A DNA stretch of 64,000 nt from Pirellulales bacterium (GTDB lineage: Bacteria; Planctomycetota; Planctomycetia; Pirellulales; JAEUIK01): assembly GCA_019745975.1 (NCBI GenBank), contig JAIESQ010000069.1, forward strand, positions 1 to 64,000, given 5' to 3'. Made by a program: the position numbers and the translations under genes. Positions within the stretch are counted from its first letter, which is position 1. Each line of letters starts with the position of its first letter. The notes beneath the pieces are model-generated. The model did not search any database and had not been told where the DNA came from. It saw nothing but the letters and a program-made list of their open reading frames with translations. Shown in pieces: positions 23,262-59,021 of the stretch.

Positions 23262-23732
23262 TCATCGCCGCCAGCGCTTTCGGATCCATTCCTTAACCTT
23301 AGACCACCTGTTGAGCGCGCCCGATTGGGACGACGTACCCAGCGACGCCGCGGCATCCGACACTGCTTCAATTCTGTCAGGCACTTTGTCTGGATTGTAG
23401 TGACTGGCTTTAGCGGACCCATTCCTCCGCTGCTCCGCCGCTATTTGGCGCTTGGTCAATGGCGGCGCCTTCAGGACCCGCCCATGGTCAATGATGTAGT
23501 GCGATCGGCACTTCAGAGTCCAGTTACCAACCGACGGCCAGAGCGATATCGTCTCCCCATCAAAGGTCAGCTTCCAGTCGGTCGGGCCCAGGGGCGTCAC
23601 GACCTCCTCGCCGCAGCCACAGCAGCAGCTGTGCGTGACCGTGCAGTACTCCATCGAAATATAAAGTATCCCCGGCTCAAGGAGGTCGGGAGCGTGCTTG
23701 ACAAAGCGGTGCTCTAGGCGGGTGTGTCGCAC
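23262..23732 (-). CDS. DUF6527 zinc protein of the ubiquitin-like cassette
   Basis: A 156-residue protein. The core runs LEPGILYISMEYCTVTHSC, then CCCGCGEEVVTPLGPTDW, WPSVGNWTLKCRSHY, with clustered Cys and a late Cys/His pair that should bind zinc. This is the DUF6527 pattern, repeatedly encoded beside multiubiquitin and ThiF-like genes in bacteria. Its role is unknown; a ligase-like or target-recruiting role is only a guess. After residue 105 it has an added basic tail (KVKEWIRKRWRR). It starts at GTG 23732, whose G is the last base of the E1 stop (TAGTG), so it is translationally coupled to the activating enzyme. Confidence 0.8.
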   Translation of the reverse strand: MRHTRLEHRFVKHAPDLLEPGILYISMEYCTVTHSCCCGCGEEVVTPLGPTDWKLTFDGETISLWPSVGNWTLKCRSHYIIDHGRVLKAPPLTKRQIAAEQRRNGSAKASHYNPDKVPDRIEAVSDAAASLGTSSQSGALNRWSKVKEWIRKRWRR

Positions 23733-24907
23733 TATTCGGGATCGCTGTTTAGAAGCATGTTGCCGTCAGTGGTGTACGTAGAGTGGTGCTCGTGCTCAAG
23801 GTCGCGGTAAAACCCGCGAAGTTTTTTCCATTTGATCACTGCCAAGACTGCGTTCAGGGCGTTGAGGTCGGCCACTTGAATGTTGGACGAGTAGACATCC
23901 TCGGGCCCGCCGCCAGTGAAGGAGATGCGCCCTTGGTAAACGTGGTCACGCTTCTCCGGCGTGCTGGCAGTGACTCGCAAAATGCCGCCCAAAGAACCAT
24001 CAACGAGTTCCAACCCCATACCCATGTCGATGAAGCCCACGCCCAGCGACTCAAGCTTTTGGACTACATGCTTCTTCGCCTCCCCGGCGTCCATGGACAG
24101 AAAGGCAAAGGTGATGCTGTCCAGCAGGCCCAAGTTCTCACCAGTGAGCAACACGTCGTGCGCCACGATCCCGCGATGCATGCGTGAGTATAGCTGCTTA
24201 AAATACTCCACCTTTTTTGGCGCCTCCCGGAGCTGATCGATTGATGGAGCGCCAGGCGCCCGAAAAGCGTTGTGCTGAAGGAATTCATCGTTGTCGAACA
24301 GGTGAATCTCGCGCACGGGCGTCTTTGCCACGAGATCAAGAACGTAGGAGCCGGTGCCGCCTAGGCCGATGATTGCCAGCTTCTCGCCGGCCAACCGCTC
24401 GGTCAGCGCTCCAATGCCCACGCGGTCCGATGCGGTCTCAATGTAGTTGAACACGTTGTCCTCATCGTCCTCTTCCGGCACGCGAAACGTTCGTGGGCTA
24501 ATGCCCGGTTTCAGGACCGCAGCCGGACCCGACAAGATGCCGGCGTAAGTCGCCATCTTGTGGTAGTAGTCCGTGTAGCCGTCACCTGGCTTGCTAGAAA
24601 AATCGTGCTTCGCTGTCAGCCCATGTCCGAGGTTGAAGTCTTTGCTGCTGTGCGAAATCGGCAACGGCTTGCCGGCGGTGTCGCAAGGGAAGTCCCCGTC
24701 GAAAAAGACTATGTGGTTTTTTGGCTTGCAGGCGATATCGCCTGCGAGCTCTAGGGCCGAAACGAGCATGCCCAGGCGGACCTCACGCTGCGCGGTCACG
24801 TACGGCACATCGCGCATGACGAGGAAACTGCCTCGGATCTGCACGAAGTAGCCATCGTCGCGAAGGCGCTTGAGGTCCGGGCTAAGATTGAACGGTCCTT
24901 GTGGCAT
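23732..24907 (-). CDS. E1-like ThiF adenylyltransferase with N-terminal extra domain
   Basis: A 391-residue activating enzyme for ubiquitin-like proteins. Residues 1-160 form an extra N-terminal domain of the DUF6791 type. The ThiF/E1 Rossmann domain begins at LAIIGLGGTGSYVLDLVAKTP (near 175), and its nucleotide-binding acid and Arg are in HLFDNDEFLQHNAFR (near 200). It should adenylate the C-terminus of the multiubiquitin protein, whose gene end it overlaps by 26 bases. The only cysteines in the entire protein are Cys60 and Cys75, both in the N-terminal domain. The usual E1 catalytic Cys is absent, so any thioester step would have to use the N-terminal domain. No separate E2 or JAB peptidase gene is seen in this cluster. 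Confidence 0.85.
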   Translation of the reverse strand: MPQGPFNLSPDLKRLRDDGYFVQIRGSFLVMRDVPYVTAQREVRLGMLVSALELAGDIACKPKNHIVFFDGDFPCDTAGKPLPISHSSKDFNLGHGLTAKHDFSSKPGDGYTDYYHKMATYAGILSGPAAVLKPGISPRTFRVPEEDDEDNVFNYIETASDRVGIGALTERLAGEKLAIIGLGGTGSYVLDLVAKTPVREIHLFDNDEFLQHNAFRAPGAPSIDQLREAPKKVEYFKQLYSRMHRGIVAHDVLLTGENLGLLDSITFAFLSMDAGEAKKHVVQKLESLGVGFIDMGMGLELVDGSLGGILRVTASTPEKRDHVYQGRISFTGGGPEDVYSSNIQVADLNALNAVLAVIKWKKLRGFYRDLEHEHHSTYTTDGNMLLNSDPE

Positions 24908-25631
24908 TGAAAATCGTTCCGTTTTTTACCTCGACGACACCTCCGGCTCCGAGTTCGCCGGCATGTGGCTTTGAGGCCGCGTGGCGGTAGGTCATCGAAA
25001 AAACCACGTTCGGGTCATGATCGCCCGGAAAAGCCAACTCCACGACCTGCTCGAATGTCACTTGGCGGCCAGTGACGATCTTTGGCCGTGAATTGACAAT
25101 GATCTCAAACGTCGGCACGGGCTTCGGCGCAGTGAGGAAGCGCTCGATTCCAGGTTGGGTTAGGTCAATCAGGTCTTCGGGCTCAATCAAACGGTCTTGG
25201 CCCCCACGGACCTCAAGAAAAACTGCCTGGTCTTCGCCGGCATTTGCCAAGGTATAGATTGAAGCACCCCGGATAACCGGCTTGCCCCACTTAAGCTGAT
25301 GATCATTGATCATGAGCTTGTAGTCGCGGTCTGTCAGAAAGGCGACGAATCGCTCTGCCCCTCGACCTCGAAGGTCGAAAGGCTCATCAAGCCGCACGTC
25401 TTCGAAATCGCCGCTCGGAACGATGGCGAACAGACTGTAGCCGTCACCGGCGTTAAGGCCGGCGGCGGATAGGATCTGACGGCCGAGTGGCACAGGATCA
25501 GAAATATCCAAGGGGTGGAAGTTCAGGTCGCCCCGCGCGAACTGAATGCGATAGGCTCTGGCGGGACGCAATGGGCGCCCTTCGCGGATAGCTTCGTCCA
25601 AATTATCAAATTCACGTTCCTCAGCGCTCAT
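24882..25631 (-). CDS. Multiubiquitin protein: three ubiquitin-like domains in one chain
   Basis: A 249-residue protein made of three successive beta-grasp domains: about 24-97 (YRIQFARGDLNFHPL...), 98-168 (YKLMINDHQLKWGKPVI...) and 170-249 (FEIIVNSRPKIVTGRQVTF...). The last ends VVEVKNGTIFNATRTVQS, the characteristic end of this family. There is no terminal Gly-Gly, so if it is conjugated it must use a different C-terminus or be processed. The ATG at 25631 has AGGAG eight bases upstream; the frame is open to 25772. It is the putative modifier consumed by the E1-like enzyme encoded next. Confidence 0.85.
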   Translation of the reverse strand: MSAEEREFDNLDEAIREGRPLRPARAYRIQFARGDLNFHPLDISDPVPLGRQILSAAGLNAGDGYSLFAIVPSGDFEDVRLDEPFDLRGRGAERFVAFLTDRDYKLMINDHQLKWGKPVIRGASIYTLANAGEDQAVFLEVRGGQDRLIEPEDLIDLTQPGIERFLTAPKPVPTFEIIVNSRPKIVTGRQVTFEQVVELAFPGDHDPNVVFSMTYRHAASKPHAGELGAGGVVEVKNGTIFNATRTVQS

Positions 25632-25804
25632 GTTCACTGCTCCTGTCGAGTTGGCGGAGAATCGCTGCGGGCAGTTGCGGATCTGCCAAACACAGCTCGA
25701 ATCGGGCGCGCTAGGGCATCTTTGCCCAAGGCGCAAAGGGACATAAAGAGTGCCGCACGCCGTGCAGTGCACTTGGCTGTCGTTCTATCTCTTAGATAGG
25801 CCGC

Positions 25805-25830: not shown

Positions 25831-28371
25831 TTACTCGGCGATGACTTCCTGCATCTGACGCAGACCATCCTGAACGACCGAGTCGGTCAGGCGGCTAAGC
25901 AGTTCATCAATCCGGGCCTTGACTTCACTCCGCTCTGACTCGCCGTTTGTCGCCAAGAGATAGGCGTTGCAGGCCATGTGGTTCCAGAAAGAGGGGGACG
26001 TGCGAAGCTTTCTTTGAGTCATTCGTCCGACCATCGCTTCGAGATAGTCCAACCACACGTAATTTCCCTCGCGAGAAAGAAGATTGGCAGTAGCCTTCCA
26101 AATCGCCACGTAGTCGACATTTGCCAGCACATTCGATAGGTCTGCCACGAGCGTATCTCCGGTCCATTCCAAGATGCCAGGTGGCAGGTTCTCCACCATA
26201 GTCGCTCTCGATCTCCACGGTATCCGCTCATCAAATAGCTCAGGAAGGGTCAGCGGTGCGCTGCCATTTGTGCCAGCCGCCCCCAGTGCATGCAGAGTTA
26301 TTCCGCTTGCCACCGCGGAGCCGCAGTCTGACAAGAATGAGAATTCTTCCGGAAACAAGTCCAACTGTCTTCGATTCCTTCGTTGGCTCTCGCGCTTTGG
26401 TCTGCGTCGGCACTTTAACAAGCTGTCGGCCCATTCTTCGAGGGAGGCGATGTCTGACTCTTCTACAAAACGGCGTAGCGCAGCCTTCCGACGACAAATT
26501 GGGCACAGATCTGTCCGGTCGCCGCGGATTGCGACTGGCCGAATTGGAAGACTAAAGAGGCGATGGTATCCACCGCTTAGTCGTAGATTGAACGCGTCCT
26601 CACAGGGTGGTGTGAGTCGACTCAACAAGACGGCGGCCCCGACTCGACGCGCATCAGCACCACTTGCAATCGTTCCTAGCTGGTCGATTGTTCGTCCGTG
26701 GCCAGCGGCAGTGTCGACGATCAAAACATCTGCGTCGCGAATGTGCCCTCTCTCGTCTTCAGCCAATTCCCACTGGCCGGTGTTCCACTTTCTCGACACC
26801 TTAATAATCCGTGGGCGAGCTCCCATACGGCTCCCTATTGCCCACGCCATTTTCCCGGCGAGCAGCTCCGCCCGAGCTCGATTCGGCATCAAAAGAACAT
26901 TTGGTGTGTTGCCGGATTTCGCAACAACATCCGTGAGTTTCTCGACAAGCGCCTTTCCAATCGCCTTCGCTTCAAGCAATTTACGGGTATCGACAAACCC
27001 TATGTAGTGGGTGTCGCCTTCCTTGCGATGGTGCTCATAGGCTTGAGCGCTCTTTACGCATTCCCACAGTTCGCGTGCAGTTGCGTCCTCATTTAGAAAC
27101 TGCGACGGGCTCCGAGATGAGCTGCACTTGGTCGTCATGCATCCGGCAACCGGATTGAATTCCTGTTGAGGGAGGACTCCACAACGAGGACATTTCGCGT
27201 GCTGCGGGTCCACAAGGTCCATTTCAATCTCGCAAAGCGCGCGGACCTGTGGGCCCTGCGCCTGCTCGACTCCGTGCGGTCGGACGAGCGACAGAATGCC
27301 CACAACGTCAGAACTGGCAGCCTGCACCAATCGCTTAAGCTCTGCCGCCAGTCTGCCTGTGACCACAACGTCGAGCATGATCAGCACTTGGCTGCCCGGA
27401 ATGATGTCTTGCATCAAGACCGGTTCACCGTACCCCTCGCACATTACCTGACGAAGGGGTGCCTCGCGGCCCTGGGCGCGTCGGGTTGCCGCCAAGCGTC
27501 GTGCTATAAGATCCATCGCCCAGCCATTCGCCAGGATGGTATCGAATTGCACGTCTGACAGAACGAAATCTGCCTTTGCAGCAATCAATTGCATCGACTC
27601 TTCGCGCGAACAAAGTGCAGCCGAATTGATGTACGTATCGCTGTGGAGTCCGCAGGGCAGAATGTAGTCGGCGCATCGTTCGACGGCTTGATGCTGCTCC
27701 AGCACATCGAGTATGTCCGTCGCTTCGCGTTGACTGCCATCGGCGGACAGATCATCCATGTCTACGACCAACTGAAGCTTGAACGCGGAAAGCTGCGTAC
27801 AAAGCTCCGAGAAGGTCACGAACACTTCTTCATCGCACTCCTCATCTCCAAAGACCAATAGCCTGACGGCTGAATCTCCCTCTTCGCGCTTCAGAAACTG
27901 GATTCCGCTTCCAGTCATTAGGCCTATCCGCTCAATGCCGATAGGCACGTCGAGAACTGTCAGGCTGAATACCTGAATTTCCATATCAACGACGAGATTG
28001 ACTCGCATCGCAAGCGGCGACGAAGTCCATTCATCCTCGCGGCACAACTTGAACTCGCGAGATTGCAGATCGATATGTCCCAGAATCTGCAAAGTTGAGT
28101 CATCGGAGTCCTCGCTTCGTTGTCGCAGCGACGCACCCACGTGAACGGTCCAGCGATCCGGAAGCGCTGCGAGAGAGCGACCTGCATTGAGTACCATGAA
28201 CTGCGACGCGCACCGAGGGCAGTTCTCGACATGGCTCCGTTTTGCGGAGGAGAGTGCATTGATGTCGCCAGCCGCGAGATCCACAAGTCGCTGCATGGAA
28301 AGGCAGTCTCCGACCGCTGTATCGCCGTCGTTTCTGTCGAAGAGTATTGCTTGTTTTGCTTTAGTGGACAT
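25831..28371 (-). CDS. Fusion of anti-sigma-type zinc motif and two PRTase-like domains
   Basis: An 846-residue multidomain protein. Residues 29-58 carry LAAGDINALSSAKRSHVENCPRC, an HxxxCxxC zinc anti-sigma motif (His47, Cys51, Cys54). A first phosphoribosyltransferase-like domain of orotate-PRTase flavour follows (LPCGLHSDTYINSAALCS near 245), with its PRPP loop altered to VLIMLDVVVTGRLA near 345. A CxxC pair (CPRCG) and further Cys lie between the domains. A second PRTase-like domain has VLIVDTAAGHGRTIDQL near 565, and another CPIC is near 630. Both loops lack one of the two acidic residues of a normal PRPP loop. The C-terminal 200 residues are unassigned. The ATG at 28371 has GGAG eight bases upstream. 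It lies 31 bases after the sigma gene on the same strand. Confidence 0.75.
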   Translation of the reverse strand: MSTKAKQAILFDRNDGDTAVGDCLSMQRLVDLAAGDINALSSAKRSHVENCPRCASQFMVLNAGRSLAALPDRWTVHVGASLRQRSEDSDDSTLQILGHIDLQSREFKLCREDEWTSSPLAMRVNLVVDMEIQVFSLTVLDVPIGIERIGLMTGSGIQFLKREEGDSAVRLLVFGDEECDEEVFVTFSELCTQLSAFKLQLVVDMDDLSADGSQREATDILDVLEQHQAVERCADYILPCGLHSDTYINSAALCSREESMQLIAAKADFVLSDVQFDTILANGWAMDLIARRLAATRRAQGREAPLRQVMCEGYGEPVLMQDIIPGSQVLIMLDVVVTGRLAAELKRLVQAASSDVVGILSLVRPHGVEQAQGPQVRALCEIEMDLVDPQHAKCPRCGVLPQQEFNPVAGCMTTKCSSSRSPSQFLNEDATARELWECVKSAQAYEHHRKEGDTHYIGFVDTRKLLEAKAIGKALVEKLTDVVAKSGNTPNVLLMPNRARAELLAGKMAWAIGSRMGARPRIIKVSRKWNTGQWELAEDERGHIRDADVLIVDTAAGHGRTIDQLGTIASGADARRVGAAVLLSRLTPPCEDAFNLRLSGGYHRLFSLPIRPVAIRGDRTDLCPICRRKAALRRFVEESDIASLEEWADSLLKCRRRPKRESQRRNRRQLDLFPEEFSFLSDCGSAVASGITLHALGAAGTNGSAPLTLPELFDERIPWRSRATMVENLPPGILEWTGDTLVADLSNVLANVDYVAIWKATANLLSREGNYVWLDYLEAMVGRMTQRKLRTSPSFWNHMACNAYLLATNGESERSEVKARIDELLSRLTDSVVQDGLRQMQEVIAE

Positions 28372-28402: not shown

Positions 28403-29587
28403 TTACTTCGGTTTCCGAAGTGGCCGGTTGGGATCCAGGTAGTCAGCCATCTTTTGCAGCGATTCAATGCATATATCGCGCAAAGTGTTCGGCGATTTCT
28501 TGAGGCGTTTAGCGAGTCGACGAAATGATAGAGCGAGTACGCAGCGACCGACGACGACTCGTCTTTCTAGTCGTGACAGTCTTCGAAATGCTGCCCTCAG
28601 GCGCTGTGAGGTTTCTTTCTCCGACACAACTTGGAAAGGATCAGGCAATTGAAGATCTCTGAGATCTGCAAGTGCCTGGGCGGAGTGAGGATGAGGCTGC
28701 CGGCGAGCTTTCAGAATTCGACGAACATTTTCGATTTCGGCGCGCGTCCGATCGGGACAGGCAAGGCGCTCGTAAACTTCTTCCATCGTCACTGAGTGGC
28801 CCTGCTCATGTGCCAACTTCTGCTCAAGTTTTCTGACCTCCTCCACTTGATCTCTACTGTGCCGTGTCAGTCCGATGCTCGTTGGAGAGCGGCGCCAGAG
28901 ATCCCGTTTCAGCGCGACCTTCGCATAGCTGGAGAATCGGTTTCCAGAGTCTGGATCAAATCGCTCCGCCACGTGCCTAAGGATGAGCGCGGACTCGTTC
29001 ATCATGTCGTCAAACTCAAAAGGTTGCCGCATCGCGCTTCTCGCTATGGGCTTTGCGAGCGGCAGATGCCATTCGACCAATTCGCCTATGGCTCGTTCAC
29101 GGCGCGAAATCAGGTCAAATTGGCCATCAGCCGCGAGGAGCGTCGGTGAAATGGCCTGCGATACGGCAAGTTGCGCCAGCCGCTCAGTGAGCCAGCCCTG
29201 GGCATCTTGTCCCTCAAGGACATCTTCCGCCGCAAGCAGATCGGCGAGTGCTCGGTGAATTTCCCTTCCCACTAGCTCTGTGCGGCCAGCCTGTTTACTT
29301 TGCGCACAACGGATAAGGACTTCACCCACCGCCTTCGTGACCAAGGCCGATAGGGTCGTGGGTTTGACTGGCGCCACTTCGACTGCGTTCAAATGCGTCT
29401 TGATCGCTTGAACAATGGCTTCGCCCAGCTCGGAGAGAGCAACATTGCCTTCCTGAATCGTCCGTCCAAGGCGGCGTTCATCATCGAGCTTGAGCGATCC
29501 CTTTTTTACGGTCCGGTAGCCGTGGACCGCCGGCGCTTCCGAGGGAGGCTCGTCGCCGGTCCGTTTTTGTGGGCTTCGTTTCCGCAT
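28403..29587 (-). CDS. Sigma-70 family RNA polymerase sigma factor
   Basis: A 394-residue sigma factor larger than an ECF type. A possible region 1.2 (LDDERRLGRTIQEGN) is near residue 35. Region 2 starts near 165 and has EFDDMMNESALILRHVAERFDPDSGNRFSSYAKVALKRDLWR (the aromatic/basic promoter-melting and -10 recognition part). Region 3 is around SVTMEEVYERL, and region 4 is LSRLERRVVVGRCVLALSFRRLAKRLKKS near 350. Residues 50-160 are an insertion not usual in the family. It heads the minus-strand cluster and precedes a protein with an HxxxCxxC motif, so a sigma/anti-sigma pair is likely. The promoters it reads are unknown. Confidence 0.82.
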   Translation of the reverse strand: MRKRSPQKRTGDEPPSEAPAVHGYRTVKKGSLKLDDERRLGRTIQEGNVALSELGEAIVQAIKTHLNAVEVAPVKPTTLSALVTKAVGEVLIRCAQSKQAGRTELVGREIHRALADLLAAEDVLEGQDAQGWLTERLAQLAVSQAISPTLLAADGQFDLISRRERAIGELVEWHLPLAKPIARSAMRQPFEFDDMMNESALILRHVAERFDPDSGNRFSSYAKVALKRDLWRRSPTSIGLTRHSRDQVEEVRKLEQKLAHEQGHSVTMEEVYERLACPDRTRAEIENVRRILKARRQPHPHSAQALADLRDLQLPDPFQVVSEKETSQRLRAAFRRLSRLERRVVVGRCVLALSFRRLAKRLKKSPNTLRDICIESLQKMADYLDPNRPLRKPK

Positions 29588-29910
29588 TGCTCTGAGCCAT
29601 CATGGCGAAGAAAAGCGACGCACCGACCCACTTCTAAGTAGGCTGCCAGGCTCGGTGGTGCGCCGCAGTTTTTGTCATTGTCTTGCTGAGAGGCTTAGGT
29701 GCCCAGGGATAGGGGACCGCCTCAGTTTTGTCCGGCAGGGGTGCCAGTACGATGCAACCTAATGCCCGTTGGGAGGTTATTACAGATGAGCATTTGGGCC
29801 TCTTTGTAGGGGTTGAAACGCCGGACGCGTTGGGAACGGTCACAGAAGCGTCACAAAGGCAAGCAAACCAACGAGTTATGGCGTAATACTTTCGAACTCA
29901 GCGGGGTCTT
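29588..29910. other. Divergent intergenic region between sigma and Fic genes
   Basis: About 320 bases upstream of both the sigma gene (minus) and the Fic gene (plus). No coding frame is convincing. Presumably it holds the promoter of the sigma/ubiquitin-like cluster, but I could not pick a consensus box. Confidence 0.4.
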
Positions 29911-29994
29911 TGCGGTGAATACGGGTGTTATTCACCGCATAAGACGCGGCGAATGTGCTTTACCTTGCGGCGAATAAGCGCTATAATCACCGCA
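29911..29994 (+). promoter_or_regulatory. Two palindromic operators before the Fic gene
   Basis: Operator 1 is TGCGGTGAATA (29911-29921) and its exact reverse complement at 29929-29939, 7 bases apart. Operator 2 is TGCGGCGAATA (29966-29976) with TAATCACCGCA (29984-29994), again with a 7-base spacer and two mismatches. Further half-sites are GCGGCGAAT at 29946 and TGCGGCGAAAA at 30000, at the start codon. Operator 2 covers the -10 box, so a bound repressor would block transcription. The Fic protein's own C-terminal winged-helix-like domain is a likely ligand (inference). Confidence 0.75.
29959..29987 (+). promoter_or_regulatory. Sigma-70-type promoter of the Fic gene
   Basis: A perfect -10 box TATAAT (29982-29987) with a -35-like TTTACC (29959-29964) separated by 17 bases. 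Transcription would start around 29994, almost at the ATG at 29999, so the message would have little or no leader unless translation begins at the ATG at 30011. Confidence 0.65.
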
Positions 29995-29998
29995 GGAA

Positions 29999-31129
29999 AT
30001 GCGGCGAAAAATGACCTATATCCATCAAATCCCAGGCTGGCCAAACCTCGTCTGGAACAGCGATGCTCTCGCTGCATCCCTAGCCGAGGTTCGCCACAAG
30101 CAGGGGAAGCTCCTCGGCAAGATGGAAGCCCTGGGGTTTGACCTCCGGAGCGAAGCGAGCCTAGCTGTTCTCACAGCCGACGTTGTGACCACATCCGCGA
30201 TTGAAGGCGAAACTCTCAATCCGGACGAGGTCCGCTCCTCAATTGCACGGAGGCTTGGAATTGAGACCGCCGGACTCGTTAAAGTCGGCCGCGATGTCGA
30301 AGGTGTCGTCGAGATGATGCTCGATGCCACAGGCCAGTTTCAAGATGAGCTGACGACCGATCGCTTGTTCGGGTGGCACTCTGCCCTTTTTCCAACCGGC
30401 AGAAGTGGAATGAACCGGATTGCTGTCGGCTCGTGGCGACCCAAGGAAGCCGGCCCTATGCAGGTCGTCTCCGGGCCTTTCGGGCATGAACGGGTTCATT
30501 TTGAAGCGCCCGATGCAGATCAACTCGCAGCGGAGATGAGCGCGTTTCTCAAGTGGTTCAACGTACCTCCACCAATCGATCCGGTCCTAAAGGCAGGCGT
30601 TGCGCACTTTTGGTTCGTAACAATCCATCCGTTCGAAGACGGCAACGGTCGCATTGCTCGCGCGATTGCCGATATGTCCCTCGCACGGGCCGATGGCACA
30701 AAGGATCGGTTCTACAGCATGTCTTCGCAAATCGCGGCTGAGCGCAAAGAGTACTACCGGCATCTTGAGGCCGCACAACGCGGCGAACTCGATATCACCT
30801 ATTGGCTAAAGTGGTTTCTTGAATGCTTGGGTCGTGCGATCGATGGGGCTGAAGAAACGCTCGGTGCGGTGCTCCATAAGGCGAAACTTTGGCAGCGCAT
30901 CAATCGACGGCCTGTCAATGATCGCCAGCAAGTCGTGATCAATCGGCTGCTGAACGACTTCAAGGGATTCCTCACGACGTCGAAGTACGCGACATTTGCA
31001 AAGTGTTCAACCGATACAGCGCTCCGCGATATTCGCGAATTGGTTGAACGCGGCATCCTGATTCAGAACTCCAAGGGTGGCCGCAGTACAAGTTATCGCC
31101 TCGCAGATCCGGAACAGATCCAGGACTGA
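29999..31129 (+). CDS. Fic-domain AMP-transferase with intrinsic inhibitory helix
   Basis: A 376-residue Fic protein. The catalytic loop HPFEDGNGR is at residues 210-218, with the invariant His210. The inhibitory motif TTSAIEGE (the S/T-xxx-E-G/N type, residues about 64-71) lies N-terminal, so this is a class II Fic whose own N-terminal helix restrains it. An N-terminal segment (YIHQIPGWPNLVWNSDALA) matches the DUF4172 domain often found in this class. Residues 300-376 look like a winged helix (FATCSTDTALRDIRELVERGILIQ is close to the observed AKCSTDTALRDIRELVERG). It transfers AMP to a hydroxyl of a target protein; the target is unknown. The start could be the ATG at 29999 or 30011. Confidence 0.88.
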   Translation: MRRKMTYIHQIPGWPNLVWNSDALAASLAEVRHKQGKLLGKMEALGFDLRSEASLAVLTADVVTTSAIEGETLNPDEVRSSIARRLGIETAGLVKVGRDVEGVVEMMLDATGQFQDELTTDRLFGWHSALFPTGRSGMNRIAVGSWRPKEAGPMQVVSGPFGHERVHFEAPDADQLAAEMSAFLKWFNVPPPIDPVLKAGVAHFWFVTIHPFEDGNGRIARAIADMSLARADGTKDRFYSMSSQIAAERKEYYRHLEAAQRGELDITYWLKWFLECLGRAIDGAEETLGAVLHKAKLWQRINRRPVNDRQQVVINRLLNDFKGFLTTSKYATFAKCSTDTALRDIRELVERGILIQNSKGGRSTSYRLADPEQIQD

Positions 31130-36435: not shown

Positions 36436-36696
36436 TAGGCACTCCAACGCGCCAGGCCAAAGTTGCCGCGGACCGTCGGGGAAAGAGCGCGCGCCACCGC
36501 GAACCGCGCAGAAGCTGGCCCCTATGCCCAAGGAGCGTCAAAACCCAGGCCAATCGAACGCGAAAAATGTTGGCGGCCGACTTTTTTGCCAGATTGTTAC
36601 TCCCGGGGGCCTCAGGTATCCTCATTCATGGCCATAAGTAGCTGAAGCCAAACGGCATAGCGTCGAGAAATTCAGCGTCCTGCGGTGAGTTTGCGA

Positions 36697-37335
36697 ATGG
36701 GTCGCTCCCGGCGAAAAATGCTGCCTTCTTCGCGCCGCGTCGAACCCCTCATCGCCGCCGCCCGCGATGGTTCCGATCTGGCCCTCGGCCAGTTGCTCAA
36801 CGCCTACCGGCCGTTTCTTCTTTCTGTCGCTGCGGAGGAATTTGATTCCAAGCTCAAAGCGAAAGCTGGACCGTCGGACGTGGTTCAGGACACATTCATC
36901 GAGGCACAACGCGACTTTGGCAAGTTCAAGTCCGACTCGGCAGAGGAACTACGGATCTGGCTGCACACACTTTTGATGAACAACCTGGTGGATCTCAGAA
37001 GGCGGTATCTGCGTGCGGCAAAGCGCCAAGTGCGTCGGGAGCGCCCCCTTGGTGTCGCTGACTCGAAAGCTATTGTCCGCGAACTCGTCGCGAACAATGG
37101 CCAATCGCCGAGTCGCCAAGCGGTCTCGCGTGAGGAGCTGGCCTGCGTCGAAGCAGCGCTCGGCCGCCTTCCTCCTGCCTATCGCCAAGCGATCATTATG
37201 CGCAGCCAGGAGCGCCAGTCCTTTACTGAAATCGGCCAGGCGATCGGAAAATCATCGGCAGCAGCGCGGATGCTGTGGAAACGTGCCATGCTGAAGCTCA
37301 AACGCGAACTGGGAGCAAGTCATGGCGACCAATGA
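36697..37335 (+). CDS. ECF-type RNA polymerase sigma factor
   Basis: A 212-residue ECF sigma factor of the planctomycete kind. Region 2 runs PLIAAARDGSDLALGQLLNAYRPFLLSVAAEEF to GPSDVVQDTFIEAQRDFGKF, and region 4 is LPPAYRQAIIMRSQERQSFTEIGQAIGKSSAAARMLWKRAMLKL. Such sigma factors are usually paired with Ser/Thr kinases in planctomycetes; the kinase gene overlaps its end by 14 bases. No zinc anti-sigma partner is seen. I use the ATG at 36697 (GGTGA just upstream); a GTG at 36685 is possible. Confidence 0.85.
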   Translation: MGRSRRKMLPSSRRVEPLIAAARDGSDLALGQLLNAYRPFLLSVAAEEFDSKLKAKAGPSDVVQDTFIEAQRDFGKFKSDSAEELRIWLHTLLMNNLVDLRRRYLRAAKRQVRRERPLGVADSKAIVRELVANNGQSPSRQAVSREELACVEAALGRLPPAYRQAIIMRSQERQSFTEIGQAIGKSSAAARMLWKRAMLKLKRELGASHGDQ

Positions 37336-40039
37336 GTCCGGTATGCGTCCACCGGCCAATCAAAACGAACTGGCAAGTTGGCTGGTTCGCGAGATGGCGG
37401 CTGCAGTGGAACAACCGTCCAGTTTTGGTGCTTCAAGGGAATCAACGAGTCGCGTGATCGAGGACTGCGTCGAGCTTCTGAGCCGGATCTGGCCATTGGA
37501 TGAAGAAGACTCCTCAGAGCGTTTGTCAGCTTCGAGCACACCAGCAGGAGACATCGACCCAAGACTGCCAAACTGCGGCATTTCGCCGCCCGCACGGGCG
37601 GGCGAATGTGTGGGGCGATTTGAGGTTCGTCGCGCGCTAGGCCATGGCGGATTCGGGGTCGTTTTTCTTGTCTTTGATCCACGCTTGAATCGCGAGGCTG
37701 CACTTAAGATTCCGCGGCCGGAGATCCTCGTTTCGCCGATACTGAGGCAGCGGTTTCTTCGTGAAGCACAGGCGGCCGCCATTCTCGACCACCCGGGGAT
37801 TGTGTCGATCTACGAAACCGGAGAGATTGGGCCAGTCGGCTACATCCTGAGTGCCTACTGCAATGGTCCGACCCTGGCAAAATGGCTGGCTGACCAGGAG
37901 GAGGCTGTTTCTCCACGAACGGCCGCTCGAATCGTCGAAAGCTTGGCCGACGCCGTGCACCACGCGCACAGTCGAGGCGTTTTGCACCGCGACATCAAGC
38001 CATCTAACGTGCTGCTAGAGCCGGTCAGCGAAGAGCGCAAGGATAGTTTATTGTTCCATCCGCGCCTCAGCGATTTCGGCTTGGCCAAGCGAATCGGCGA
38101 ATCAGGCGAAGAAACCAGACGTGGAACGATCCTCGGCACGCCGCGCTATATGGCGCCCGAGCAAGCAGCGGGGGACGATCGCACCGTCGGAGTACAGACC
38201 GACGTGTACGCATTGGGCGTCATCCTATATGAACTACTGACCGGAAGGCCGCCGTTTGTCGGTCCCACCGACAGCGAGACCCTCCGCATGATTAGCAACC
38301 ACGAGCTAACGCCGGCCGATTTGCGGGCGCGACAGGTTCCGCGCGATCTAGCGACGATTGCACTGAAGTGCCTGGAGAAGGAGCAGCAGGCGCGTTACCA
38401 ATCGGCCCGAGAATTGGCCGACGACCTGCGGCGTTTTCTGTCGGGCGAGCCCGTGCTGGCTCGCGCCATTGGGTTCCCTGAGCGTCTGGTGCGCTGGTGC
38501 CGAAGGCGGCCTGTGGTCGCCGGGCTCTCGGCAGGATTGGCAGCTGCGATTGTTCTGGGAACCACTGTCGCTGCCTCGCAATGGTTCCGCGCCGAGCAGA
38601 ACCTCATTCAAGCGAAAGCCGAAGCGAACCGGGCCGAAGCCAATCTGCAGCAAGCCGAAAGCGCACTGTTGGACCTATCATGGATGGTCGAGGAGAGCGC
38701 CCTTTGGGCCCAAGAGAGCAGTTCGTTCCGCGACACGGTGCACCAGAGGCTGGCCGACTATGATAAGCACGCGGCGGCGCAGCGAGACGGCGCCGGCAAA
38801 AGCTCGCCCATGCTGGCAGCGAGTTACTCTTTCGCTGCACGAAATGCGGCTATCTCGGGCGACTTTAAGTTGGCCGACGAAAACTTCCGCCGCAGCCTCA
38901 AGGTCTGGCGCGAAATTGTCGCGGCGAATCCCGAGAGATCCGACTACCAAAGGGGAACAGCATTGTGCCTCTTCAATTATCTCTTGGTGCTCCGCCAGCA
39001 GGGCCGGACGGCTGGGCAAACGGATGGTGTCGACGCTGTGCGAAGGCAGGTCGCTGACTTCGCCAATCAAGATCGGCTTTCTGGGCGGTCGTTGTCCGCC
39101 GTCGTCGGTTTACTGCTTGAACGCGGGAACACGCTCTACAACGATCATCGCGTGCAAGAGGCGCTGGACGCGCAGGAGCTGGGACTGGTTGCTGCCAATG
39201 AGCTGCGCTCCAGATTTCCGCAGGAACCTGAATTCTTGTTTTTCGAGGGGCAGTTCTGGCGCCTGATTGGAAATAGTAAACGTCGGTTACGCGATGGAGT
39301 GGGGGCCGGAGACGCTTTGAATCATGCAAGGCAGTCATTTGAAGAGCTGGTCAAACTTACACCCGATCATCAGAAACACTGTGAAGAGCTGGTCGAGACG
39401 TACCGCGCAATTGCGGTACACTTCCGTGAAAGCAAAGAGTCGGCTGCGGCAATTGAACCATTGCAGTCGGGCGTCTCCTTTTGCGAACAGCTCGTATCGA
39501 GAAACCCAAGCGATAATCTCTTGCACATTCGCTTGGGAGCCCTGTTGCGCGAATTGGCGCTTGCTCAACTCGCGACTGGCCAGAAGCAGGAGTCGCTTGA
39601 TTCGTTCGCGCGATGCCGCGAGGTCTGGTTCGAGGCAAATAAGCGCGACGGCGGCATCCCCGACCACAATCTTCGAGAACTCGCGTATGCATGCCATCAA
39701 GCGGGGACAGTCGCAAGCCAGTTGGGCCAGCATTCAACGGCCCGCCGAGCATTCGCCGATGCAGTCGACGCGTTTCGACTGGCATCTGATCGCGTCAAAC
39801 TGGGAGCGAAAGGCGACATCGCCCGGGGGGAGTCTCATATGAGACTGGGAGACTATCAGCGCAAGGCTGGCGAAAATGACGCCGCGATCGAATCATATAA
39901 GCAGGCATTCACGTTCCTTGAGCCCTTGGCGAAGCAACGCATCAACCCACAAGTCGTCGATTGGTACGAGAAGAGTCGCAGAATTATCGATGATTTGAAT
40001 GGCGACCAGGTCACAAATTCGGAGGCCCATGCGAAGTAG
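37322..40039 (+). CDS. Serine/threonine protein kinase with TPR-like C-terminal region
   Basis: A 905-residue kinase anchored by a single membrane helix. The kinase domain spans about 98-355, with the Gly loop GHGGFGVVF, the catalytic HRDIKPSNVLL (Asp about 223), DFG in LSDFGLAKR near 251, and PRYMAPEQAAG near 276, a typical bacterial Hanks-type kinase. The helix VVAGLSAGLAAAIVLGTTVAA is near 398. Beyond it, about 500 residues of helical repeats (FKLADENFRRSLKVWREI, KSAAIEPLQSGVSFCEQL, SLDSFARCREVWFEA) face the outside or periplasm. It probably controls the overlapping ECF sigma factor gene product by phosphorylation (inference). Confidence 0.92.
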   Translation: MATNESGMRPPANQNELASWLVREMAAAVEQPSSFGASRESTSRVIEDCVELLSRIWPLDEEDSSERLSASSTPAGDIDPRLPNCGISPPARAGECVGRFEVRRALGHGGFGVVFLVFDPRLNREAALKIPRPEILVSPILRQRFLREAQAAAILDHPGIVSIYETGEIGPVGYILSAYCNGPTLAKWLADQEEAVSPRTAARIVESLADAVHHAHSRGVLHRDIKPSNVLLEPVSEERKDSLLFHPRLSDFGLAKRIGESGEETRRGTILGTPRYMAPEQAAGDDRTVGVQTDVYALGVILYELLTGRPPFVGPTDSETLRMISNHELTPADLRARQVPRDLATIALKCLEKEQQARYQSARELADDLRRFLSGEPVLARAIGFPERLVRWCRRRPVVAGLSAGLAAAIVLGTTVAASQWFRAEQNLIQAKAEANRAEANLQQAESALLDLSWMVEESALWAQESSSFRDTVHQRLADYDKHAAAQRDGAGKSSPMLAASYSFAARNAAISGDFKLADENFRRSLKVWREIVAANPERSDYQRGTALCLFNYLLVLRQQGRTAGQTDGVDAVRRQVADFANQDRLSGRSLSAVVGLLLERGNTLYNDHRVQEALDAQELGLVAANELRSRFPQEPEFLFFEGQFWRLIGNSKRRLRDGVGAGDALNHARQSFEELVKLTPDHQKHCEELVETYRAIAVHFRESKESAAAIEPLQSGVSFCEQLVSRNPSDNLLHIRLGALLRELALAQLATGQKQESLDSFARCREVWFEANKRDGGIPDHNLRELAYACHQAGTVASQLGQHSTARRAFADAVDAFRLASDRVKLGAKGDIARGESHMRLGDYQRKAGENDAAIESYKQAFTFLEPLAKQRINPQVVDWYEKSRRIIDDLNGDQVTNSEAHAK

Positions 40040-47476: not shown

Positions 47477-48454
47477 GTGGCACGTTCCGATCTCTTAATA
47501 TCGCTCGTGAAAGCCGGCACTTCCGGCGACCAAGCGTCGTTCCGTAGGGCCGTCGAAGCGCTCATAGCTGAAGAACGCGCCAAAAAGCACGAGTTACTCG
47601 CCGAACAGCTTGCCCGGCACTTGGCACGGAACGGAAGCGGGCTGCCAAATGGGGAAACTCGGTCCAGCAGCCCCACGTCCACTTATGACCTGTTTTTCGA
47701 ACTGACCCCGAATCAGCAAATCGACAAGTTGATCTTGCCTGAAGTCGTGACCGCCGCCATTCGCGAGCTTGTCGAGGAGCATAACCGTAGAGAATTGCTG
47801 CGATCTCACAATCTCAATCCACGAAACCGCATCCTTCTCGCAGGGCCACCGGGCAACGGCAAGACTTCGCTAGCGGAGGCCCTCGCCACTGCGCTAATGG
47901 TCCCGTTCATCGTCGTCAGGTACGAAGGCTTGATCGCCAGCTATCTAGGTGAGACCGCCAGCCGGCTAAGACGCCTATTCGATCACGTACGCACGCGCTC
48001 ATGTGTTCTTTTCTTTGATGAGTTTGACACCATCGGTAAAGAACGTGGAGACGCTCACGAGACTGGTGAGATCAAGCGAGTGGTCAGCTCACTCCTTCTG
48101 CAGATCGACAGTCTCCCGACTCATGTCGTGGTCGTCACCGCAACGAATCATCCCGAGTTGCTCGACCGTGCCGTCTGGAGACGATTTCAAATACGGTTAG
48201 AGCTACCTCAGCCCACTCGCTCGCAAATTGAGCGATACTTTGCCGCCATCGAGACACGCCTGAACTTTTCCCTTGGCATCACGCCCAAAACGCTTGCCGA
48301 AAAACTTGGTGGCGCCAACTTCTCGGAATTGGAGGACTTCGCCGGCGACATTGCCCGCCGATACGTGTTGTCCCTGCCCGATGCGAACGTAAAAAGAATT
48401 GTTGCTGATTGCTTGTCACAGTGGCAGCTACGGTTTCGACCGAGGCGGCGATGA
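47477..48454 (+). CDS. AAA+ ATPase paired with a subtilase
   Basis: A 325-residue AAA+ protein. Walker A is LAGPPGNGKTSLAEALA near 128, Walker B is VLFFDEFDTIGK near 176, sensor 1 is VVTATNHPELLD near 220, and the Arg finger is in RRFQIRLELP. The N-terminal 95 residues are helical with LVKAGTSGDQASFRRAVEALIAEERAK. AAA+ ATPases of this form recur directly upstream of S8-peptidase genes in bacteria, probably acting as the regulator or unfoldase for the protease. The start is the GTG at 47477, which gives the family-like N-terminus. The protease gene follows after 25 bases. Confidence 0.85.
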   Translation: MARSDLLISLVKAGTSGDQASFRRAVEALIAEERAKKHELLAEQLARHLARNGSGLPNGETRSSSPTSTYDLFFELTPNQQIDKLILPEVVTAAIRELVEEHNRRELLRSHNLNPRNRILLAGPPGNGKTSLAEALATALMVPFIVVRYEGLIASYLGETASRLRRLFDHVRTRSCVLFFDEFDTIGKERGDAHETGEIKRVVSSLLLQIDSLPTHVVVVTATNHPELLDRAVWRRFQIRLELPQPTRSQIERYFAAIETRLNFSLGITPKTLAEKLGGANFSELEDFAGDIARRYVLSLPDANVKRIVADCLSQWQLRFRPRRR

Positions 48455-48479
48455 GTGACCTCCGACCGGGGCGGCGACA

Positions 48480-51053
48480 ATGACTGAGCGACCATTTCTA
48501 ATTTTTCCCCAAGCAACGGCCGGAGACCGGATGCGTGCGGCCGGGGGCGGCGGCAAGCTCAACAAGCCATCCGCTGCGATGCAGCGCGCCCGTCTTGACG
48601 CGAAGTTCCAACAGATCGCGGCTAGCCTTCAACAAGTCCAAGCAACGGTTCAAGGCCTTGAGCCTGAACAGGTCATCGTATTTGAGACTATAGGCGAGAC
48701 GATCCACGGCCTCGCAGAAGCGGCCAAAAAAGTGCCAGGACTTGAGTGGTTGGCCGAAATGGACCTCGACGACGCTGCGCCTGGTGACGGATTCGCCGAA
48801 GAATCTGATCCAACGAAGCCTCTGTCAAGGCGACTCTACGCCGTCATGACAAACCAGGAGGCGATGAATTCCTTATTGTCGATGTGGGGACAATGGTGTG
48901 CCCACCCAGAGCAACGGGCCAAACCCGGATTCGGTCCCTTCAAGCACATTTTCGAGCAATTGAAGGATCTTCGTCGTTGGGGAGTTCAGGACCGCCTCTT
49001 CGAGACACAAGTAGTTGAGTATTGGCAAGAAAGCCTCGCTCTTCGAGATGCAACAATTCGCTTCGAGGTTGAACTCTGGTGCCGCGGACAGGAAAGTAGG
49101 CGGCGCCAAGCATACGCCGACTTGCAGAACCTCGTGCAGCAGGCTGGCGGTCAGTGCCTCCGCGAGGCCACCATCGAACAGATCCTATACCACGGCGTCA
49201 TGGCGGAACTGCCGGCGTCGGCGATTCAAGAAGCTGTCGACCGAATTCGCGACCAAAGTTATACCCAATTGCTCCGCTGCGAAGACGTGATGTTTTTTCG
49301 TCCGTTAGGCCAAGCCCGATTTGCTGCTACCACAAAAGGCGGCCAACTTGACTCAATTCGGACGCGCTTCGCCGATCAACCCCAGCCCTCAGGCAATCCA
49401 GTTGTGGCCCTGCTTGATGGTCTTCCGCTAGAAAACCATGTTGCTCTTGCGGGACGGCTCCAAATTGATGATCCGGACGGATTGTCAGCACATTACCAAC
49501 CTGAGCAGCAGCAGCACGGAACCGCCATGGCGTCCCTCGTTGTTCATGGCGACCTTAATGATGACGGCTCCGCATTGACCAAGCCCATCTACTGCCGGCC
49601 AATTCTAGTCCCAAGCGTCGACTTCCAAAACCGCGTTCACGAGCAAACCCCGACTGACGAGTTGATCGTCGACCTTGTACATCGCTGCATTCGTCGTCTT
49701 AAAGTCGGAGACGAGGCGATCGGACCAGGCATTCGCATCGTAAATCTCTCCATCGGCAATGCGTTTCAGCCTTTCGACCGTGAGCTCAGCCCATTAGCCA
49801 GGCTTTTGGATTGGCTCGCATGGGAATACAAGATCCTCTTTCTGGTGAGCGTTGGCAATCAACAACAGCAGATATCGCTCGACCTGACGGCCGACCAACT
49901 TGCAAACCTTTCGGACGACGAGGCGCTGACAAGAACTCTCCAAGCAATGCGAGACGACCAGATATTTCGTCGTCAGTATTCACCGGCCGAGGCGGTCAAT
50001 GTTCTCACCGTAGGGGCAATTCACAGTGATTCATCAACGCCGCCTCAAGGGGACCGACGGATCGACCTCCTCCGCGAAGCTCGGCTTCCCAGCCCAATTA
50101 GCACGATCACGAGTGGATACAAGCGCTCGGTGAAGCCAGAGATTTTCTTTCCTGGTGGCAGACAACTCTATCAAGCCCCAGCCGGGCAGGCCGCGGGAAA
50201 ATGGCAGTTTCGAATCGTTGATTCCACTAATCCACCAGGGCAGCTTATCAGTTCTCCAAGTAAGCAAGCGATGGAGCTGGACCGGGTCATTCACACACGA
50301 GGTACGAGCAACGCAACGGCACTCGCAACACGGTGCTCTGCCATGGCGCATTACAGGCTGCATGAGCTAATTGCAGAGCTCGCTGACGTTGATCTGCCCG
50401 CCGACACAGAAGCAGTGGTCCTAAAAGCCTTGCTGGTTCACGGTGCGTGCTGGGGCGACGCGGCGGATACCATCCAACGACTCTTTGGTCAGACAATCAA
50501 TGATTGGCGCGACATGCAGCGATTCAAAGCCCGGCTGCTCGGCTTCGGTGAAGTGAACCCCGAACGTTGCTGGTTCTGCACCGATCAACGTGTCACGATG
50601 CTCGGCTGGGGCAGGATCAGCGCCGATCAGGGTCACGTCTACTCCCTTCCTCTGCCCCCGTCACTGAGTGCTACCAGGATAAAGCGACGATTGACGATTA
50701 CACTGGCTTGGCTTACGCCGATCAATCCACGGCACCGTGACTATCGAAAAGCACAACTTTGGTTCGACGTTCCCGAAGAAGAGTTTGGCGTTGCCAAGAA
50801 GGATTTGGATGCCGACACAGCCAGGCGTGGAACGGTTGAGCATCGGGTATTCGAGGGGAACAGAGTACGCACCTTCGATGATGCGTTAGAGGTTACGGTC
50901 AACTGCAAAGAGAACGCCGGTGCTCTTACCGAGGAGATTCCCTACGCCATCGCCGTGACACTCGAAATCGCGGAACCAACTCAAGTCGTCATCTACGATG
51001 AGGTCCGGCAGCGAATTCGACCACGGGTGGAAATTGCGCCTGCTACATCGTGA
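48480..51053 (+). CDS. S8 subtilisin-like serine protease partner
   Basis: An 857-residue intracellular subtilase (no signal peptide). The catalytic Asp is in VVALLDGLPLENH near 313, the His in QQQQHGTAMASLV near 347, and the Ser in HTRGTSNATALATR near 608. The first 300 residues are helical and variable, a likely sensor or regulatory part, starting ERPFLIFPQA. The last 190 residues form beta-rich domains (ITLAWLTPINPRHRDYRKAQLWFDV). The arrangement with an upstream AAA+ ATPase is recurrent and probably defensive. The ATG at 48480 begins just after a near-duplicate of the preceding junction sequence. Confidence 0.85.
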   Translation: MTERPFLIFPQATAGDRMRAAGGGGKLNKPSAAMQRARLDAKFQQIAASLQQVQATVQGLEPEQVIVFETIGETIHGLAEAAKKVPGLEWLAEMDLDDAAPGDGFAEESDPTKPLSRRLYAVMTNQEAMNSLLSMWGQWCAHPEQRAKPGFGPFKHIFEQLKDLRRWGVQDRLFETQVVEYWQESLALRDATIRFEVELWCRGQESRRRQAYADLQNLVQQAGGQCLREATIEQILYHGVMAELPASAIQEAVDRIRDQSYTQLLRCEDVMFFRPLGQARFAATTKGGQLDSIRTRFADQPQPSGNPVVALLDGLPLENHVALAGRLQIDDPDGLSAHYQPEQQQHGTAMASLVVHGDLNDDGSALTKPIYCRPILVPSVDFQNRVHEQTPTDELIVDLVHRCIRRLKVGDEAIGPGIRIVNLSIGNAFQPFDRELSPLARLLDWLAWEYKILFLVSVGNQQQQISLDLTADQLANLSDDEALTRTLQAMRDDQIFRRQYSPAEAVNVLTVGAIHSDSSTPPQGDRRIDLLREARLPSPISTITSGYKRSVKPEIFFPGGRQLYQAPAGQAAGKWQFRIVDSTNPPGQLISSPSKQAMELDRVIHTRGTSNATALATRCSAMAHYRLHELIAELADVDLPADTEAVVLKALLVHGACWGDAADTIQRLFGQTINDWRDMQRFKARLLGFGEVNPERCWFCTDQRVTMLGWGRISADQGHVYSLPLPPSLSATRIKRRLTITLAWLTPINPRHRDYRKAQLWFDVPEEEFGVAKKDLDADTARRGTVEHRVFEGNRVRTFDDALEVTVNCKENAGALTEEIPYAIAVTLEIAEPTQVVIYDEVRQRIRPRVEIAPATS

Positions 51054-51279
51054 GCGCTTAAATGGCGCGGCTCTGGCCACGTGAAAGTCCGTCGCGTCAC
51101 TTTTGATGTCGTGATGCATCGGTTTCCGCTCGGTCGTGCCGCCGGACCATTTCTGAAGAGCAGCGTCCGCCTCGACCCAAACCCAAGCTACTGATGAAGT
51201 TATTGTCGCGGCTGCGGCGTGACATGGGCTCCAATAATTGGTACGCTGCTCAAATTGCGTACCCCCTTTTGGAACCAGC

Positions 51280-54200: not shown

Positions 54201-54666
54201 CTCGCTCTCGCTTCAGGGTGTCGAGCGGCTCACGAGCGTTCTAGTCCTCCCCCACCCTGAGCGCGAAGCCCCAGAGGTCCGTAATCTTCGGCCGGACTAC
54301 GAAGTTGAGGCCATCGCCATGCGGACGGCAATCGAGCACGAAGAAGCCAAAGGCCGACAAGTCTACGACGTACATGAAAAGAATCTGGGATATGACATCA
54401 CGAGTCTCGATTTGAGCAGTGGCGAGCTCCGATTGATCGAGGTTAAGGGAATCGGTGCGGCCGACGGCACGATTCTCCTAACCCCGAACGAGCATCGCGT
54501 AGCCGAAGACCGCCGTGATTGCTACTGGCTCTACGTCGTCACCAATTGCAACGCCACGCCGGCGCTAAATGCCGTAAAGGATCCTGCCTCCCAACCCTGG
54601 CAGCCAGTTCAAAAAGTCCAGCACTTTAGCCTGCCTGCTCGTACCTTGAATCGCGAACAGCAATAA
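51280..54666 (+). CDS. SNF2-family helicase with DUF3883
   Basis: An 1128-residue SF2 helicase of the RapA/SNF2 type. Walker A is LLADDAGAGKTIMAGLLI near 125, the DEAH box is VIIDEAHRM near 225, TATPHKGDPDNF near 260 is motif III, and the C-terminal helicase domain has FTEFKDTLDYL, LVATEAAGEGINLQ and QRMGRIHRYGQ (motif VI) near 590. The C-terminus holds a DUF3883-like nuclease-related domain (GYDITSLDLSSGELRLIEVKG, near 1036, with the Glu-x-Lys). The ATG at 51280 is the likely start. It is the first of five co-directional genes with nuclease and methylase functions, so it should be the translocase of that system. Confidence 0.9.
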   Translation: MQSLKPGQIIRGPLFSEPMRVETVRHSGNSAWIVGLVGQQSERFRSVTLTAADLAGLTVLESACDYQGDPTLLRVGVQAYSLGIAYEFDPYFGLSISRVDPLPHQLEAVYDYLLKLARVRFLLADDAGAGKTIMAGLLIRELKLRGLAERILIVTPANLAFQWQRELKEKFDEKFLLLRGSDIRDQFGMNQWMEQKHVITSLDLAKRHEILPGLRQAHWDLVIIDEAHRMSWSPPARKTARYALGELLRDTSDHFLLLTATPHKGDPDNFTLFMQLIDEDAYADIRSIREAMTQQRAPFYLRRTKEAMVYFPERQPDGAWVAKKIFTKRIPHTADFEIDGAEFQLYRDITRFVKQQSARAAALSEDPRARAVGFLMSLYQRRLASSIFAVRQSLHNRAERLERGLKKAQELVATAPPDLPDPDEMEDMEESERERLEDMLAAISLAGNAEQVRAEIGELQELAAQAKIVEDSGTEAKLSRLKELMHQQGFFDRSDQRLLIFTEFKDTLDYLMRTLAQWGFRVGCIHGGMAPGSRDEPNTRLFAEQQFKDGDIQILVATEAAGEGINLQCCHILFNYDIPWNPNRLEQRMGRIHRYGQLYDCLIFNFVATNTIEGRVLQKLLDKLQEIRDALDDDTVFNVVGEVLPASQIERVLRDYYAGKMGEADLEERLLRNVDQGRFQAICRNALEGLAAKRLNLEMLIERRARAQERRVVPETIARFLADAAPSVPLALKPTPGVSHTFDVPRTPSVLRRYEGEPDWKFPSLAAKYSRCSTDRETAEKNNWEWVTPGHPLFEAVRRHAVTQARDHFAKGACFYSLSHSQPARLDFYRARIVDGLGHVIHERLFVLEITGSGQCTLQEPSTLGDLLPAPTPTDTPAVAALPEPTTWLHEHALNDFLTEVRSERQTEIERIGCHVELSLTELLQKADEEIGKAAADIEAKIGGAEGRFAQAETRHADLLARRERRRDELERQRSLSLQGVERLTSVLVLPHPEREAPEVRNLRPDYEVEAIAMRTAIEHEEAKGRQVYDVHEKNLGYDITSLDLSSGELRLIEVKGIGAADGTILLTPNEHRVAEDRRDCYWLYVVTNCNATPALNAVKDPASQPWQPVQKVQHFSLPARTLNREQQ

Positions 54667-54683
54667 ATACTGATCCCGCTCAC

Positions 54684-55610: not shown

Positions 55611-55614
55611 AACC

Positions 55615-58635: not shown

Positions 58636-58638
58636 TCG

Positions 58639-59004
58639 ATGAAGCGTGACATGGACTTGATTCGCAAAATGGTCTTGGCAGTCGAAGATTCGCCTTCCGG
58701 ATTCGCTCCCGACGCTCTCAATTTCGATGACTATACCGAAGAACAAGTCGGTTACCATGCCTACCTGCTCGTCGATGCAGGACTGGCGTTGGGCGCCGAT
58801 GTCACGACCATGAGTAGCAGCAGCCCCGAATACGTCCTTAGACGGTTGACCTGGGCCGGCCACGAGTTCGCCGATGCTTGCCGCAACGAGTCGATTTGGA
58901 ACCAAGCTCAAGACACGGTTAAGAAGAAGGCCGGCAGCGTCACATTTGACGTACTCAAGGAATTGCTCGTCTCACTCCTGCGCGGTGTGATAGGTATTGC
59001 ATAA
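58639..59004 (+). CDS. DUF2513-like protein
   Basis: A 121-residue protein, MKRDMDLIRKMVLAVEDSP at the start, then EEQVGYHAYLLVDAGLALG and RRLTWAGHEFADACRN. This is the DUF2513 pattern: an N-terminal helix and a winged-helix-like fold. The C-terminus has an amphipathic/hydrophobic stretch LKELLVSLLRGVIGIA. It is encoded between the methylase and the DUF499 ATPase, three bases after the former, so it may regulate or be part of the system. Confidence 0.78.
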   Translation: MKRDMDLIRKMVLAVEDSPSGFAPDALNFDDYTEEQVGYHAYLLVDAGLALGADVTTMSSSSPEYVLRRLTWAGHEFADACRNESIWNQAQDTVKKKAGSVTFDVLKELLVSLLRGVIGIA

Positions 59005-59021
59005 AACGTTTGGGGGAAATG

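Follow-up and report, generated by a model that had tools for sequence, protein, structure and literature searches.

Which inputs switch on bacterial ubiquitin-like conjugation operons is largely open, and the locus described here poses this question in a particular form: what is the role of a large protein, P0001, encoded between a sigma factor gene and a polyubiquitin-like (polyUbl) operon? The window analysed is a stretch of 64,000 nucleotides from a Pirellulales bacterium (contig JAIESQ010000069.1). P0001 is encoded on its minus strand (25831..28371) by a single intact ORF of 846 aa, and the coordinates given in the first-pass annotation, which was made from the sequence and its ORF list, match this one frame, 28371..25831. 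From the N- to the C-terminus the protein consists of a zinc anti-sigma (ZAS) domain, a middle domain, two tandem OPRT-like domains and a helical C-terminus. The C-terminal region (25834..26451, minus strand) matched no Pfam family below an E-value of 0.01, and its helices are seen only in a low-confidence model: AlphaFold run without an alignment gave a pLDDT of 36.1 for P0001 and 42.4 for domain 2 alone.

The ZAS domain (residues 18–73; 28153..28320, minus strand) contains C23, H47, C51 and C54, the last three of which had been read in the first-pass annotation as an HxxxCxxC anti-sigma motif. A single-sequence Pfam scan of P0001 missed the domain. Residues 1–80 were used as a query against 57 genomes, of which 56 belong to relatives and one is the window's own; the matches were weak, 12 loci were fetched and five of these were examined. 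The helix plus HxxxCxxC unit, as in P0001, is present in three of the five (L080, L082 and L089; 33–43% identical to the P0001 domain) and was not seen in L081 and L085. A profile built from P0001 and these three sequences (A3) retrieved the solved anti-sigma factors DdvA (E = 3.3e-6), ChrR (1.5e-4) and RsiW (1.1e-3). The motif is therefore real and, judged by profile homology, the N-terminus of P0001 is a true zinc anti-sigma domain, in which C23 is likely to be the fourth zinc ligand. As is the case for genes of ZAS factors, that of P0001 adjoins a sigma gene on the same strand, 31 bp away (28403..29587), so that this part of the earlier reading is borne out by profile and gene order alike. 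The product of the latter gene is a sigma-70 family factor of 394 aa with an N-terminal extension (Sigma70_r2, E = 2.6e-6; r4_2, 0.0022), which matches NCBIfam TIGR02937 with 51.5 bits over a cut-off of 42.9. Two of the ZAS relatives, L080 and L089, adjoin ORFs that read by eye as ECF sigma factors; the third, L082, reads as a planctomycete kinase. The ZAS profile also matched the N-terminus of a CHAT-domain protein (PDB 8rot_B, E = 1.2e-4), possibly another anti-sigma-like domain carried by a large protein.

Domain 1 (residues 206–400; 27172..27756, minus strand) is closest to the Thermus-type OPRT (pyrE model TIGR01367, E = 4.8e-8) and matches the solved OPRT 2wns (E = 1.3e-4). In order to compare it with ordinary enzymes, we used 28 reference OPRTs drawn from the phylum search described below; they come from the 29 loci fetched besides the window's own, L007 being left out as a tandem relative, and matches without a locus were not used. 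Alignment of domain 1 to the profile of these 28 sequences with hhalign gave a probability of 99.0, and controls against the E1 gave at most 0.3. The canonical PRPP loop with two adjacent acids is intact in all 28: the first position is E in 24 and D in four, and the second is occupied by D throughout. In P0001 the equivalent loop, VLIMLDVVVTG (residues 329–339; 27355..27387, minus strand), has L333 in the first position and D334 in the second, so that, as had been proposed, only the second acid is kept; the TG of the loop is kept as well. Eighteen columns are conserved in at least 90% of the reference OPRTs; domain 1 keeps nine of these, the altered ones including the first acid (L333), an invariant R (P365) and T337, among others. 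When each reference OPRT was left out in turn, 27 of the 28 kept 16–18 of 18–23 conserved columns, and L025 kept 11 of 19.

Domain 2 (residues 441–640; 26452..27051, minus strand) matches Pribosyltran (PF00156) with an E-value of 1.4e-5, its 24.9 bits lying under the gathering score of 26.3. A profile of the domain 2 sequences of the three tandem proteins described below matched the OPRT profile with an hhalign probability of 95.6 (controls at most 0.3) over nearly the full length, both the beginning of the OPRT domain and its CPxC end included. In this alignment D553 of the loop VLIVDTAAGHG (residues 549–559; 26695..26727, minus strand) falls at the position of the first acid and T554 at that of the second; domain 2 thus keeps only the first acid, again as proposed. 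Two further CxxC pairs had been noted behind the anti-sigma motif. Both are present, as CPRC (residues 394–397; 27181..27192, minus strand) and CPIC (residues 623–626; 26494..26505, minus strand). The former is homologous to the CPLC tail of ordinary planctomycete OPRTs (C in 21 of 28), and the latter is aligned by hhalign with the OPRT CPxC tail, together with CPCC of L007 and CPFC of L068. Since both align with ordinary OPRT tails, the pairs are no evidence of additional zinc fingers. The profile searches called for in the first-pass annotation thus find OPRT/PRTase families in both segments, and no intact double-acid loop appeared on alignment in either, in line with its reading of two PRTase folds with altered loops. 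Because both profiles match OPRTs, the two halves of the tandem look OPRT-derived. Both have the type I PRTase fold by profile, and both depart from an OPRT enzyme in lacking the adjacent loop acids, domain 1 also in other near-invariant residues.

The tandem is shared by two distant relatives: L007, a protein of 1035 aa from the same phylum (genome G332), and L068, one of 1867 aa from genome G914, which turned up in the search of the phylum of G487. L007 is colinear with residues 320–628 of P0001 (E = 5e-14) and is in turn linked to L068 (E = 1e-17 and 4e-13); a direct sequence link between L068 and P0001 was not found. The loop acids in P0001, L007 and L068 are LD, TD and ND, respectively, in domain 1 and DT, DD and DS in domain 2. 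The split pattern therefore recurs: domain 1 has lost the first acid and kept the second in all three proteins, and domain 2 has kept the first in all three and lost the second in two. Considering the nine of 18 columns kept and the recurrence of the first-acid loss in both relatives, the altered loop of domain 1 appears to reflect conserved divergence, not noise. A decaying gene, with loops altered through loss of function, would be consistent with the one full copy found; the intact frame of 846 codons and the comparable losses of loop acids in L007 and L068, both distant relatives, make this explanation highly improbable.

The pattern bears on two further readings of the tandem. In one, P0001 is an anti-sigma protein in which the OPRT pair is a structural or protein-binding platform, for instance for polyUbl or a phage protein, and binds no nucleotide. 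The change of half of the highly conserved columns in domain 1 and the alteration of both loops fit such a role, but each loop retains one acid, that of domain 1 also its TG, and the positions of D334 and D553 are occupied by D in all three tandem proteins; we regard a platform as unlikely. In the other, domain 2 or the pair is an active enzyme that synthesizes or degrades an unusual nucleotide, as an effector or signal producer, and the ZAS domain only regulates expression. Domain 2 of L007 does keep both acids (VVIWDDGSNSGDT), and a nucleoside-phosphorylase-like gene follows L068; however, the second acid of domain 2 is lost in P0001 and L068, and the first acid of domain 1 is absent from all three proteins, making an active enzyme distinctly unlikely. 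The first-pass annotation had left open whether the two domains act as a sensor or share catalysis. In type I PRTases both acids act within one active site. Because of this, and because domain 1 lacks many other OPRT residues, shared catalysis is unlikely, and the sensor reading is the likeliest.

The ZAS motif was not seen in L007 or L068, and GHKL and STAS domains read in them by eye found no real support in Pfam or PDB searches. The settings of both genes are defence-like. At the L007 locus, a gene for a receiver domain fused to a DpnII-MboI nuclease (L034 831–4801, E = 7.5e-31) lies beyond an IS-like insertion. The gene that comes after L068 (L068 10862–12124) is of the PNP_UDP type (E = 2.4e-10) and matches both a CBASS-type effector model (8.5e-16) and the PADLOC candidate PDC-M60C (5e-30); its surroundings read as a type I restriction locus.

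Relatives of P0001 numbered zero in 96 other related genomes, plasmids, phages, viral contigs and genome contigs. In the phylum, the search with P0001 matched 54 of 392 genomes, the window's own included; judged by the stretch matched, nearly all were ordinary OPRTs covering domain 1 only, and L007 was the sole tandem relative. Among the odd matches, the two that were examined, in G359 and G205, lie outside domain 1 and showed no tandem; a further one is in G135. Profile searches elsewhere matched 3 of 198 genomes (one being the tandem L068), 1 of 59 (the genome of L007), 7 of 146 and 13 of 110, all matches apart from L068 and L007 covering domain 1 only by the same judgement. Three further sets gave no match (0 of 14, 0 of 299 genomes of the phylum of G479, and 0 of 106), weak negatives because these sets contained no positive control. 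Plasmid matches were rejected as chance, one of three having been examined, and searches with L007, L068 or their alignments found nothing in plasmids or viral contigs. No ZAS-PRTase protein or tandem pseudo-OPRT was found described in the literature within reach, which excludes most subscription journals and makes this weak evidence of novelty.

What matters most for the function of P0001 is an operon that the first-pass annotation did not mention. The polyUbl frame opens 58 bp past P0001 and encodes three Multi_ubiq stretches (24882..25772; PF14452, E = 3.7e-59). It is followed by genes for an E1-like protein with DUF6791 and ThiF domains (PRK06153; 23732..24907; PF20590, E = 1e-55; ThiF, 2.9e-7; NF004802, 692 bits over a cut-off of 601) and for a DUF6527 protein (23262..23732; PF20137, E = 1.2e-23). 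All five genes lie on the minus strand in the order sigma, P0001, polyUbl, E1-like and DUF6527, and the last genes overlap; they are presumably co-transcribed, the sigma gene being the first of this putative operon. On the plus strand (47477–61808) the window carries an AAA ATPase and an IetS subtilase (IetS, E = 6e-302), followed by homologues of HmaA, HmaB and HmaC. The region is therefore a defence island, and the polyUbl operon possibly has a defensive role. The window also contains a Fic-domain gene (29999–31129), the end of which weakly matches a helix-turn-helix; upstream of this gene (29890–30000) repeated TATTCACCGC/GCGGCGAAT words form a possible operator. At 36685–40039 lies another sigma factor gene, and after it one for a Ser/Thr kinase that carries TPR repeats.

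In order to find out what accompanies such operons elsewhere, we compared 21 loci: 14 from a genome scan with the E1, in every one of which polyUbl, E1 and DUF6527 occur together, and seven planctomycete loci, read by eye, from a Pfam search that matched 8 of 392 genomes, the window's included. None of the 21 carries a P0001 homologue, nor was a second copy of the sigma, ZAS-PRTase and polyUbl arrangement found among them, and the coupling of P0001 to polyUbl consequently rests on one genome. Candidate sigma genes were picked by eye from the ORF lists. Nine loci have a Pfam sigma match at E ≤ 0.01 (L042, L043, L045, L046, L050, L092, L093, L094 and L098) and two more, L044 and L055, have a homologue of those, bringing sigma-like genes to 11 of 21; the candidate at L096 is weak, and those at L051 and L054 gave no Pfam sigma match. 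A strict pattern found an ImmA/IrrE motif within 8 kb of the operon in 16 loci, and reading by eye added L048 and L094 (18 of 21 with such a peptidase); the window has no such motif. Given these counts, a sigma-like gene beside this type of operon is recurrent, and P0001 stands in the usual place of the peptidase. At five loci (L042, L044, L046, L050 and L055) the operon is headed by a sigma-like gene and genes for a protein of ~190 aa and an ImmA/IrrE-type protein of ~1130 aa, which in L042 is fused to a UvrD helicase and a PD-DEXK nuclease (Pfam). The window's sigma factor matched none of the sigma-like proteins of the other loci at an E-value of 0.01. P0001 and its sigma factor might regulate something else, their place before the operon being a coincidence, as would be allowed by the 21 loci without P0001 and by a search of 126 other genomes of the phylum, which at E = 1e-18 found no homologue of this sigma factor; the common strand, the short gaps and the sigma-like genes at 11 of 21 loci argue against it, and we consider a coincidence improbable.

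We favour, although with no better than even confidence, an anti-sigma role for P0001 in the control of the polyUbl operon, gated by an OPRT pseudo-dimer that is catalytically dead and senses PRPP or a nucleotide. OPRTs work as dimers, and for this reason the tandem may be such a pair fused into one chain, a pseudo-dimer no longer capable of transferase chemistry. P0001 would be cytoplasmic, its zinc domain holding the sigma factor encoded just upstream, and the tandem would bind PRPP, PPi or a nucleotide, perhaps a pyrimidine one, or report its absence. A shift in the nucleotide or PRPP pool, caused by phage attack or another stress, would alter the tandem and free the sigma factor, raising expression of the polyUbl, E1-like and DUF6527 genes. 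Sigma binding, the ligand, the direction of the switch and the defence role are the points that we infer. In favour of the model are the ZAS homology, the sigma gene 31 bp upstream, the close triad on the same strand and the altered loops; both tandem relatives lack the first acid of domain 1 and lie near effector-like genes, and sigma-like and ImmA/IrrE genes stand beside the triad elsewhere. Against it are the coupling in a single genome, the occurrence of the ZAS domain on a kinase (L082) and the ZAS motif unseen in the tandem relatives. More tentatively, fused pairs of dead OPRTs might form a new class of defence switch, sensing disturbance of the PRPP/pyrimidine pool and turning on immunity through a variable output domain. 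Such a switch would in effect guard nucleotide metabolism; its output would be a ZAS domain here and, in the relatives, signalling parts of other kinds partnered by a nuclease or a phosphorylase, and in this genome the immunity turned on would be a ubiquitin-like conjugation operon.

The anti-sigma factors DdvA, ChrR and RsiW resemble P0001 in having a homologous zinc domain and a gene beside a sigma gene. In factors of this type, however, the sensory part is another domain or a membrane segment, whereas in P0001 it would be the tandem of pseudo-OPRTs. A sigma/anti-sigma pair has a precedent in immunity in the CRISPR Calp system. With the Thermus-type OPRT (TIGR01367) both domains share the fold and the CPxC tail, but P0001 has lost PRPP-loop acids and, in domain 1, half of the near-invariant columns. 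The operon itself is closest to the polyUbl operons in row 6e of Iyer et al. 2006 (PMC1779556): these encode a tandem protein with two to three Ub-like domains, here the three Multi_ubiq stretches, and an E1 with JAB or a domain replacing it, here DUF6791 with ThiF. DUF6791 is presumably their domain X, and the DUF6527 protein, found in the window and in 14 of 14 loci of the E1 scan, may be the metal-binding protein Y of that row; the words 'sigma' and 'phosphoribosyl' do not occur in the main text of that paper. By analogy, PurR of Firmicutes is the nearest precedent for the sensing half of P0001: according to PMC8789054, its PRTase domain, devoid of transferase activity, binds PRPP and ppGpp and thereby controls transcription. 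PurR, however, is a winged-helix repressor, whereas P0001 combines a ZAS domain with two OPRT-type domains with altered acids. Adjacent controllers are common at ubiquitin-like (Bub) operons, and those of Bub and other immune operons named in the available part of PMC13373217 are the repressor CapW, the repressor and protease CapH and CapP, and the kinase and STAS repressor CapK and CapS. Like P0001, these are encoded by regulatory genes adjoining a ubiquitin-like operon; no ZAS-PRTase controller is among those named, and the controllers described there answer DNA damage. If our reading is correct, an anti-sigma protein reading nucleotides or PRPP would be an input unlike these DNA-damage controllers, and the tandem pseudo-OPRT, which occurs in a different gene context in each of the three cases, would be a portable sensor core.
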